Positions 6,364 through 63,233 of a DNA stretch of 64,000 bases are shown piece after piece. The position numbers were made by a program, and so were the translations under genes. The notes beneath the pieces are model-generated. The model had not been told where the DNA came from, searched no databases, and saw only the letters and a list, made by a program, of their open reading frames with translations. Origin of the DNA: Sphingobium yanoikuyae (GTDB lineage: Bacteria > Pseudomonadota > Alphaproteobacteria > Sphingomonadales > Sphingomonadaceae); contig NZ_CP139979.1 in the NCBI RefSeq assembly GCF_034424525.1, forward strand, positions 4,425,501 to 4,489,500. The letters are read 5' to 3'. How positions within the stretch are numbered: the first letter of the stretch is position 1; the number at the start of each line of letters is the position of its first letter.

Positions 6364-6694
6364 AATCGTCAAATTCTATAAGCCGGTCCGCTGCGTCGCA
6401 TCATCTGTCATTATCGAACGGCGCGCTTCCCCGGTTCAAGCATCCTGACCTGCAATGAGCAGGAAAACGCGGCAAATGGCAAGATGCAAAAATTGCAACC
6501 ACCCGATTTTTTTCGCACTTGCAAAATTACCTGCTGCAGCGCACATAGGAAAGGCCTTTCAGGCATCCTCTCCTATAAACTTTCCGGGCTGGCGCTTGCG
6601 CTGGCCCTTTTTTTGTTCCGTGCATAACGAAGCACGGCCCCTTTCCCTCACCCCCGGCGTTACCTATCTTCGTTTCGCAACCAAAAGGACGGGG
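6364..6694. other. Divergent intergenic region with orphan terminator
   Basis: No convincing protein gene lies in these 331 bases. The stretch is AT-richer than its neighbours and has short direct and inverted motifs such as TGCAAAAATTGCA near 6485-6497. It ends with a strong plus-strand terminator hairpin (6586-6614) that no upstream plus-strand gene needs. It could encode a small RNA ending at that hairpin, or be a regulated leader of the AAA ATPase gene. The LysR promoter must also be here. Confidence 0.5.
6586..6614 (+). terminator. Rho-independent terminator without an upstream gene
   Basis: GGGCTGGCGC (6586-6595) pairs with GCGCTGGCCC (6598-6607) with two G-U pairs and a two-base loop. 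Seven T residues follow at 6608-6614. It works only in the plus direction and lies 80 bases before the AAA ATPase start, so it marks either the end of a small RNA or an attenuator. Confidence 0.75.
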
Positions 6695-27440: not shown

Positions 27441-27512
27441 CGCCCCGGCGCAAGGCGATCGGCTCGCGAAGGGCTTCCCCTGCCGCCGCGCTTGCGCTAT
27501 CCATTGCCCATA

Positions 27513-29566
<2,054 letters not shown>

Positions 29567-61807: not shown

Positions 61808-61832
61808 GGGCCGCTCCTCGCCGGAGCGGCCC
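61808..61832 (+). terminator. Terminator hairpin interrupted by IS insertion
   Basis: GGGCCGCTCC (61808-61817) pairs with GGAGCGGCCC (61823-61832) over a five-base loop. Only TT follows before the IS left end. Seven T residues appear directly after the IS right end (63190-63196). Removing the element restores a hairpin followed by seven T residues. Confidence 0.8.
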
Positions 61833-61839
61833 TTATGGG

Positions 61840-61851
61840 ATGGCCCGCCCC
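61840..61851 (+). repeat. Left subterminal inverted repeat of the IS
   Basis: ATGGCCCGCCCC, the perfect reverse complement of 63175-63186. A further hairpin (CACCAGCATCA, 61856-61866, with TGATGCTGGTG, 61871-61881) lies just inside. Confidence 0.85.
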
Positions 61852-61905
61852 TTTTCACCAGCATCAGGTATGATGCTGGTGCTTGAAAGGGAAAGGAGCG
61901 GACCG

Positions 61906-62937
61906 ATGTCTATTGTGATCCTTGGCGTTGATTTGGGCAAGAATGCCTGCAGTGTCGTAGGCGTTGATGCAGCAGGCGCTGTCATCGTGCGTAAGTCGAT
62001 GCGCCGACAGACACTTATCGATTACGTGACCAAGCTTCCGGCTTGCGTGATTGCAATGGAGGCGTGCTGTGGTGCCCACCACCTTGGTCGACTTTTCGCC
62101 GCGCAGGGGCACGAAATCAGATTGATGTCGCCGGAGTACGTGCGCCCGTATGTTAAAGCGCAGAAGAATGATGATCGTGATGCGGAGGGGATTGCCGAGG
62201 CCGCCTCGCGCCCGACGATGCGCTTCGTCGAACTCAAGACTCAGGAGCAGTTGGACATCCAGACCCTCCACCGCGTCAGGTCCCGCCTGGTAGCCGAGCG
62301 CACAAACCTCATCAACCAACTGCGGGCGATCCTGCTGGAGCGGGGGACCATTTGCCCGGCCGGACGGCGCAAGCTGGAGCTGGGCATTGATGCCATGCTG
62401 GCCGCCGAAGATACGACCCTATCACCACGCTTGAAGCAACTGGTGGGTGAACTGCGTGCCGAATGGCACGAACTTGATACCAAGGTCGAGGCACTGAACG
62501 GCGAGTTTGTCGAACTGGCTCGCAATGATGCAGCTGCCCGGCGGCTCACGTCCATCCCCGGCATCGGTACATTGAACGCAACCGCTTTGATTGCAGCCGT
62601 GGGCGATGCCAGCAGCTTTGCCAAAGCGCGAGACTTGGGTGCCTGGCTCGGCCTGGTACCCAGGCAACATACTACCGGCGGCAAGCCCCGGCTGCTCGGC
62701 ATCTCCAAGCGTGGCAACACCTATTTGCGCACTTTGCTCATCCATGGCGCCCGGGCAGCATTACCGTCACTGGCGCGCAGCGAAACCCCGCTGGGACGTT
62801 GGTTAACAGGAATGATCGAGCGAGGAGTTCATCGCAACGCAATCGTCGTCGCATTGGCGAATAAACTGGCGCGGATCGCTTGGGCAGCCCTCCGCAAAGA
62901 AGTGAGCTTCGAACGCGGCTATCCAGCAGCGGCATAA
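61906..62937 (+). CDS. IS110-family DEDD transposase
   Basis: This 343-residue recombinase has the RuvC-like DEDD catalytic residues: Asp9 in GVDLGKNAC, Glu52 in AMEACCGAHHLG, and Asp residues in KAQKNDDRDAEGIAEA near 89-92. The C-terminal Transposase_20 domain contains SIPGIGTLNATALIAAVGD and LVPRQHTTGGKPRLLGISKR near 255-290, with a Thr-Thr-Gly-Gly segment where related proteins carry the catalytic serine (SGG). The ATG at 61906 has GGAG upstream. It appears intact. Confidence 0.93.
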   Translation: MSIVILGVDLGKNACSVVGVDAAGAVIVRKSMRRQTLIDYVTKLPACVIAMEACCGAHHLGRLFAAQGHEIRLMSPEYVRPYVKAQKNDDRDAEGIAEAASRPTMRFVELKTQEQLDIQTLHRVRSRLVAERTNLINQLRAILLERGTICPAGRRKLELGIDAMLAAEDTTLSPRLKQLVGELRAEWHELDTKVEALNGEFVELARNDAAARRLTSIPGIGTLNATALIAAVGDASSFAKARDLGAWLGLVPRQHTTGGKPRLLGISKRGNTYLRTLLIHGARAALPSLARSETPLGRWLTGMIERGVHRNAIVVALANKLARIAWAALRKEVSFERGYPAAA

Positions 62938-62943
62938 CGGATC

Positions 62944-63138
62944 GGCTGCGTGCTTCTGCACGCGTAGCCCAACGATGTTTGCAGGAAGGATCGTGAAGAT
63001 GGCCTGACAGTCGATCGGCGTCTGGAAAGCCCGGGCAAAAAAATGGCACCTGTTGCCGGTTCCCTTATTGTGGCTCCAGACGTGCGGATGTCCATCTTGG
63101 CCACGGGATGCTCCCGTGAGACCGCATACGTTGACGCA
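62944..63138 (+). ncRNA. Candidate bridge RNA (seekRNA) of the IS110-family element
   Basis: Four stem-loops follow one another. They are 62944-62969, 62972-62994, then a stem CGTCTGGA (63019-63026) with TCCAGACG (63075-63082), and a stem TGCG (63083-63086) with CGCA (63135-63138). The last two each enclose an internal loop and an apical hairpin (GGCA/TGCC and CACGGGA/TCCCGTG). In the last module the 3' loop strand has CATACGTT, identical to the right end plus core (63184-63191). In the module before it, the 5' strand has seven A and the 3' strand CCCTT, matching the right and left flanks of the insertion site. This fold was drawn by eye. Confidence 0.6.
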
Positions 63139-63174
63139 GACTGATCAGAACACCGTAAAATCCTACTTGCAAAC

Positions 63175-63186
63175 GGGGCGGGCCAT
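63175..63186 (-). repeat. Right subterminal inverted repeat of the IS
   Basis: GGGGCGGGCCAT, the perfect reverse complement of 61840-61851. It is followed by ACG and then the T-run of the interrupted terminator. Confidence 0.85.
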
Positions 63187-63233
63187 ACGTTTTTTTATGT
63201 CCGGTAATGGGCGCGCCTGGGCACCGGCGGCCT

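Follow-up and report, generated by a model that had tools for sequence, protein, structure and literature searches.

A candidate bridge RNA 3' of the transposase gene of an IS1111-type insertion sequence in Sphingobium yanoikuyae, and the sites at which its guides and those of its relatives point

Introduction

Does the noncoding stretch behind the transposase gene of an insertion sequence in Sphingobium yanoikuyae encode an RNA that directs the element to its insertion sites and, if so, where do its guides aim? The question was raised by an earlier note, made from the letters of the DNA alone, which described the interval 62944-63138 of the window (the whole 64 kb stretch of DNA analyzed, to whose forward strand all coordinates below refer) as a folded RNA with guide-like loops. 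RNAs of this type, termed bridge RNAs or seekRNAs, are 70-100 nt long in the IS1111 type and co-purify with the transposase. The type of RNA, its position and its polarity are already published (Siddiquee 2024; Durrant 2024); what seems to be new is where the guides aim, namely at terminator-like joints and frameshift A-runs. Based on the comparison described here, we consider it very probable (approximately 0.94) that the element at 61833-63191 is an IS1111-type insertion sequence of the IS110 family, which encodes a bridge RNA 3' of its transposase gene and which has been recently active.

Architecture of the element and its transposase gene

The left junction carries the core dinucleotide TT (61833-61834), followed by the left end ATGGG (61835-61839), which is the proposed partner of the donor-loop 5' strand, and by the left subterminal inverted repeat (STIR) ATGGCCCGCCCC (61840-61851). 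On the right side, the STIR GGGGCGGGCCAT (63175-63186) is followed by the right end ACG (63187-63189) and by the core TT with the displaced T-run that constitutes the right target (63190-63196). The STIRs are 12 bp long and are offset by 7 bp on the left, with the core TT counted, and by 3 bp on the right, as given for IS1111 elements in PMC11187229. Among the elements of the 77 distinct RNAs compared, the left offset was 7 bp in 58 and 6 bp in 19, the ends of relatives having themselves been placed by this offset rule (7 or 6 bp left, 3 bp right).

The transposase gene (61906-62937, 343 amino acids) was taken to start at ATG 61906 behind GGAGCGG, a start that is our choice. Its product matched PF01548 and PF02371 of Pfam, as well as NCBIfam NF033542 with 313.7 bits against a cut-off of 140. 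By sequence, two relatives were found in the PDB, the IS621 and ISCro4 transposases, and the IS621 chain matched residues 185-337 with an E value of 4.2e-11. These matches assign the protein to the IS110-family DEDD type at the level of family profiles. Between the transposase stop codon and the right STIR lie 237 nt of noncoding sequence, which hold the proposed RNA.

Within this stretch, TTGCAA (63167-63172) resembles a -35 element and would stand 17 bp from TTATGG in a circle with joined ends, where the two may form a junction promoter. TTGC was present near the right end in 75 of the 77 RNAs; in 65, joining of the ends would put it 17 bp from TTATGG, an arrangement in line with the junction promoter reported for ISEc11 and ISEc21 (PMC11187229).

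The sample comprised 166 loci, 160 with a transposase match, 159 with some inverted repeat and 125 with a repeat starting ATGG or ATGA. The other 35 loci, which were truncated or degenerate, carried other STIRs or had a longer chance repeat picked, were excluded from all guide counts. Three sets were used: 91 distinct sites, 77 distinct RNAs and 47 RNAs in structural alignment. In addition, 14 plasmid loci, taken from listings of 13 and 60 rows, were examined for guides, and one further plasmid locus for its empty site only.

Conserved fold of the 3' noncoding region

Conservation of the structure in homologous elements, which the earlier note had named as a check, was analyzed in a structural alignment of 47 RNAs (transposase identity of at least 58%, RNAs less than 88% identical), whose consensus holds 36 pairs over 188 columns. 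Here, 95.5% of the cells were paired, compared to 27-43% when the partners were slid by 1 to 3 columns. Both sides had changed in 16 of the 36 pairs, and neither the paired share nor the compensatory count was reached in any of 500 shuffles, which ignore relatedness. Compensatory changes were found in the target-loop outer stem (63015-63026 with 63075-63087; 9 of 12 pairs), the target-loop apical hairpin (63044-63058; 3 of 5) and the donor-loop apical hairpin (63098-63124; 4 of 7), and in none of the 12 pairs of the other three helices. The consensus also pairs AGATGG (62997-63002) with CCATCT on the donor 5' side (63092-63097), a predicted contact inside the RNA that is nearly invariant and shows no covariation.

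The covariance model of this fold, R1, gave a single match in the 64 kb window, at 62973-63142 (161.1 bits), the identical copy L001 having been in the training set. The previously proposed interval additionally covers a leading hairpin, GGCTGCGTGC..GCACGCGTAGCC (62944-62969), which lies outside the model. That hairpin is located directly 3' of the transposase stop codon, and the second element variant of the genome, described below, has similar complementary arms with altered letters.

R1 was searched in 30 sources, 25 of which had a match. It matched all 10 held-out loci at 47-54% transposase identity (48-89 bits) and, weakly, five of nine loci at 39-44% identity (18-34 bits; at any position relative to the transposase gene). 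No match was detected in the other four of these nine loci, nor in L120, a 64% relative in which usable end repeats were likewise not found. Single-sequence folding was unremarkable (z of -2.05 for 62938-63200 and -0.37 for 62994-63144), and folding energy, being too weak as proof, was set aside for covariation.

The plan of outer stem, internal loop and apical hairpin, which had been read into both modules of the RNA, was found for the target loop. The donor-loop outer stem (UGCGG/CCGCA) was rejected as not conserved, as it was paired in only 66.8% of the cells with zero compensatory changes; it appears if this segment of the window is folded by itself. In the model, the donor strands belong to a multi-branched region and not to a simple internal loop. 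The lack of conservation of this stem, the one IS621-type outer stem examined, does not speak against IS1111 membership, since the IS1111 form is often a multi-loop, in which many relatives have their donor strands (PMC11208160).

Target-loop guides and insertion-site flanks

The sequence matches on which the RNA had originally been proposed were all present. In the target loop, the seven A of the 5' strand (63037-63043), the candidate right-target guide, are complementary to the seven T of the top strand at 63190-63196. On the 3' strand, the candidate left-target guide TTCCC plus core TT (63060-63066) includes CCCTT (63062-63066), which is identical to the top strand of the left flank plus core (61830-61834).

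The comparison of guides with flanks took each distinct guide pair once (64 rows) or, after clustering of the RNAs at 80% identity, each cluster once (35 rows). For the 64 guide pairs, the score was 462 of 576 for 5'-strand pairing to the right flank, compared to 340.3 (sd 8.2) with the flanks redealt (z 14.8). For 3'-strand identity to the left flank it was 273.5 of 320, compared to 126.1 (sd 8.4; z 17.5). With one row per RNA cluster, z was 8.5 for the right and 13.1 for the left flank. The right-guide score is the best of three registers, in observed and shuffled data alike; a score at fixed register, which gave z 9.2, 7.4 and 6.3 in three sets, was abandoned because alignment gaps shift the register by one.

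In a polarity test with 65 guide pairs, z reached 13.3 and 17.8 for the proposed order and only 1.5 and -0.8 for the swapped one, which bears out the earlier suggestion that loop matches of the same polarity are not due to chance. As judged by these comparisons, the strands of the target loop follow the element's own flanks, and this holds for the proposed polarity only. The target-strand order of IS621 is the reverse of the order seen here.

Regarding individual copies, the own flank was unbeaten among 89 distinct flanks for 35 of the 64 guide pairs (ties allowed) and within the best tenth for 55; it was beaten by another flank for 29 and badly, with at least 13 flanks better, for eight. The expectation that the loops of other copies would follow their own flanks and ends hence held overall and failed for these eight pairs. 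Among the 14 plasmid copies added later, the own flank was unbeaten among the 89 known flanks in eight and beaten in six, in a set that is no independent sample with respect to the earlier one (several elements are near-identical, and L240 and L241 share a site). Two of the plasmid copies belong to the window variant, and both lie at CCC-TTTTTT. Clear cases of guide versus flank are L055 (GATTTTCGACAA vs. TTGTCGAAAATC) and L154 (GCACACGAA vs. TTCGTGTGC).

Several loci showed particular features. L087, L094, L104, L119, L145 and L239 combine a well-fitting left guide with a right guide that fits the flank poorly, which may reflect either insertion at partial matches or later change. The right flank of L054 starts with AT instead of TT, and its right guide AAGGAACGAT pairs with the flank, possibly reflecting a different or mismatched core. 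L239 (NZ_CP102386.1) contains two adjacent IS110-family transposase genes, the copy examined being located at ...CTCAAT^TACCCC.

Donor-loop guides and element ends

The 3' strand of the donor loop, CATACGTT (63125-63132), is identical to the right end plus core of the element (63184-63191). Identity with the element's own right end plus core, which in the window copy comprises the seven letters ATACGTT, was found in 77 of 77 distinct RNAs. The strands ended in ATACGTT, ATACATT or ATAGATT, and the right ends were ACG in 68 cases, ACA in six (L108 at 66% identity and five at 47-54%) and AGA in three (47-48%). By this comparison, the donor-loop 3' strand follows the right end across three end variants. 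Together with the covariation of the fold and the tracking of the flanks, this supports the assignment of the 3' noncoding region as an IS1111-type bridge RNA with guides.

On the 5' strand, TCCAT (63091-63095), the proposed guide for the left end, can form four pairs and one wobble with ATGGG, and pairing with the own left end is possible in 74 of the 77 RNAs when G-U is allowed. At the fifth base of the left end, A stood opposite C in 0 of 18 cases and G opposite C in 11 of 40; the strand was otherwise nearly invariant. Because of this near-invariance, the suggested contact with the left end is compatible with the data and plausible rather than demonstrated by covariation.

Element copies and uninterrupted sites

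Seven copies of the element, in two variants, were found in the assembly. Two copies, in the window and on contig C3, are 100% identical to the query. The second variant has five copies, 86% identical to the window element; three of them are letter-for-letter identical and the remaining two have an equal BLAST score. Both variants carry the A7 right guide and differ in their left-target guides (CCC-TT vs. TCT-TT), and the letters of the donor hairpin differ compensatorily between them. The nearest named transposases (99-100%) are those of Sphingobium lactosutens and S. scionense. Identical copies of the element are located at different, unrelated loci, and in the same genome two copies of an IS3-family element each contain an insertion of the second variant.

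Uninterrupted sites were also recovered. L167 and L170, further copies of this IS3-family element in the same genome, are uninterrupted; at the junction their sequence is, base for base, the left flank of L004 joined to its right flank, and the right flanks diverge approximately 18 bases past it. The window's own site is uninterrupted in the relatives L213 and L214, where it reads GAGCGGCCC-TTTTTT-ATGTCC, with six T vs. seven in the window. At the plasmid site of L001, the searched pattern was found uninterrupted, with seven T, in 13 of 94 genomes of the genus, and L070 represents the same site, filled, with seven T vs. six in L001. Insertion was exact, site-specific and without target duplication, the length of the T-run varying by one at the window and L001 sites.

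Terminator-like hairpins and other insertion sequences at the target sites

In the window, the element lies between the stem of a terminator-like hairpin (GGGCCGCTCC-TCGCC-GGAGCGGCCC, 61808-61832; -22.6 kcal/mol) and its T-run. We take a strong hairpin with a T-run, as at this site, to be the textbook form of an intrinsic terminator. The window guide spells CCC-TT-TTTTT, and seven of the 12 window-variant sites lie behind a hairpin with a folding energy of -10 kcal/mol or lower (the L001/L070 site was counted once, L069 and L147, which have a common left flank, as two, and two are plasmid copies). CCCTTTTTT occurs 43 times in the genome, compared to 11 occurrences of the pattern read backwards. 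It stood behind such a hairpin in 20 of 30 inspected occurrences vs. 60 of 300 positions drawn at random from the same loci, by a score that is permissive in that these 60 pass, as do the IS630 sites L013, L075 and L121 and others inside coding sequence. In this genome, the CCC-TT-TTTTT address is therefore usually the joint between stem and T-run of a terminator-like hairpin, the address itself mostly meaning a terminator. A preference for hairpin structure as such was unsupported, since insertions (7 of 12) lay behind hairpins no oftener than the bare sequence (20 of 30).

Other insertion sequences formed a further class of sites. Reading frames in the flanks matched IS630 (NF033545), IS5 (NF033580), IS3 (NF033516, below cut-off) and IS21 (NF033546), and one flank gene carries an IS630 annotation in its own record. 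Site classes were assigned with 18 transposase seeds from 11 of the 91 sites; all 18 seeds match transposase families at E 1e-3 or better, several below the curated cut-off. Seed matches were detected in 75 of 182 site windows vs. 7 of 148 windows located 700-1400 bases off. An insertion-sequence frame lay at most 40 bases from the junction at 38 of the 91 distinct sites (IS5 15, IS630 12, IS3 9 and IS21 2; the match of L014 to IS5 is weak, 2e-6), and at 27 of 80 sites when the seed loci were left out; the other 53 of the 91 fell outside these classes. The flank frame of L049, assigned to IS3 by eye, had no family match in Pfam or NCBIfam and was not counted as IS3.

At the 25 sites readable on both sides, the frame step at the junction was -1 in 18, 0 in five and +1 in two. 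The 18 sites with a -1 step contain A-runs such as A7G and A4G5, which we take to be programmed frameshift points of those families. On the transposase tree, 14 of the 15 IS5 cases fell into one group of 18 rows (L016, L017, L018, L020, L021, L045, L111, L118, L124-L126, L128, L129 and L131-L135), all with the guide CCCC-TT and a 6 bp left offset; these 14 rows lie in IS5-family transposases, mostly at a -1 frame step. Target labels changed 24 times on the tree, compared to 34.6 when shuffled. In L055 and L027, relatives at 47-48%, the guides match the FDNM/YDNM codons of an IS21 transposase, where the frame is unchanged.

These observations suggest that guides in this alphaproteobacterial clade may have repeatedly settled on signals constrained letter by letter, i.e., the -1 frameshift A-runs (A7G, A4G5) of IS3, IS630 and IS5 transposases and the joints between terminator stem and U-tract, a reading that we advance tentatively, as not quite an even bet. 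The preference for insertion sequences could instead be a by-product, A-runs being scarce in G+C-rich genomes and present mostly in frameshift signals and terminators, so that A-run guides land there. The use of terminators by the window variant fits such availability, as does the frequent change of target labels; on the other hand, the IS5-aimed group has a more complex address, CCCC-TTT plus mostly GGCG.AAAA on the other strand, and still lies in IS5 in 14 of its 18 rows, and IS21 sites are matched by guides that lack an A-run (L055, 12 nt). We regard the by-product explanation as possible and give it rather less than even odds. If the guides have indeed settled on constrained signals, such addresses would recur in every host, and a split terminator could let host transcripts run into the transposase gene and RNA of the element.

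Proposed mechanism and remaining alternatives

We propose that the transposase gene and the 3' noncoding region are co-transcribed, probably from the promoter formed by the joined ends in the circle, and that the RNA would be processed and bind the transposase. The donor loop would read the joined ends, its 3' strand AUACGUU pairing with the bottom strand of the right end plus core and its 5' strand perhaps with the left end. In the target loop, the top strand to the right of the core would be read by the 5' strand AAAAAAA, and the bottom strand to its left by the 3' strand CCCUU. Strand exchange would take place at the TT core, giving insertions of a single orientation that duplicate no target sequence. 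We infer pairing with ends and target, and exchange at TT, from the anatomy and from published relatives.

That the transposase alone selects T-runs or terminator hairpins by their structure, the RNA guides being secondary, is highly improbable: many sites of the A-run relatives are T-runs, and the hairpins at seven of the 12 window-variant sites would fit, but transposases 81-82% identical to that of the window are found at sites that lack a T-run yet match the guides of the element concerned (L154, GCACACGAA; L079, TGAACGAA), and hairpins are no commoner at insertions than at CCCTTTTTT generally. We likewise give very little credence to the folded region being a cis regulator (attenuator or 3' UTR) of the transposase mRNA, with matches that are coincidental or inherited from one ancestral insertion, since, even though the region would be co-transcribed with the gene in any model and one helix (columns 29-34/133-138) is without covariation, the loops differ between relatives where the flanks differ, as controlled by shuffling, the right end co-varies with the donor loop, and identical elements occur at unrelated loci.

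Comparison with known systems

The bridge RNA proposed here resembles the IS1111 seekRNAs of ISEc11, ISKpn4, ISPst6 and ISPa11 as presented in PMC11187229: the RNA lies 3' of the transposase gene, the STIR offsets are 7 and 3 bp, the complement of the top strand precedes the match to the bottom strand, and targets vary between relatives. According to the same source, the IS1111 target-strand order is the reverse of that in IS110, and targets include attC sites and REP sequences, in contrast with the terminator-like T-runs and frameshift A-runs found here. Recognition of the ends of the insertion sequence was left open in its discussion, a point addressed by the tracking of the right end by the donor loop.

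As described in PMC11208160, IS621 and predicted IS110/IS1111 bridge RNAs share with the present RNA a target and a donor loop, two guide strands in each and a common core dinucleotide; that paper inspected six elements and had already put forward donor pairing for three of them that belong to the IS1111 group. The IS110-group RNAs described there are located at the left end of the element and present their donor strands in a simple internal loop. The present RNA instead lies 3' of the transposase gene, its target loop begins with the right-target strand, and its donor strands are modelled as multi-branched.

RNA-guided nesting in another insertion sequence has a precedent, since ISEc21, of the IS110 group, targets a conserved stretch of IS3 transposase codons (PMC11187229). 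The codons chosen by ISEc21 surround the second D of DDE, whereas the relatives analyzed here lie at the -1 step between transposase halves, in three families. We found no report of IS110/IS1111 elements aimed at frameshift signals or terminators among the matches listed, in the titles and abstract openings of open-licence PMC papers. The words 'frameshift' and 'IS630' are absent from the main text of Siddiquee et al. (PMC11187229), where at least one of the three uses of 'terminator' concerns a construct; the latter word is absent from the main text of Durrant et al. (PMC11208160).

The comparison adds 64 natural guide pairs and sites for IS1111 bridge RNAs, a natural reprogramming that may be of use in work on programmable recombinases. 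It also suggests a readable landing rule, by which such elements insert at transcription terminators and in the frameshift signals that other mobile elements carry, and offers a testable reason for insertion sequences nested in insertion sequences.

Finally, Rfam at its gathering threshold gave two matches in the window and none at the element; the window contains a TPP riboswitch at 27508-27616 (RF00059, 58.0 bits) and a suhB/mmgR-type small RNA at 6547-6622 (RF00519, 47.2 bits), both on the forward strand.
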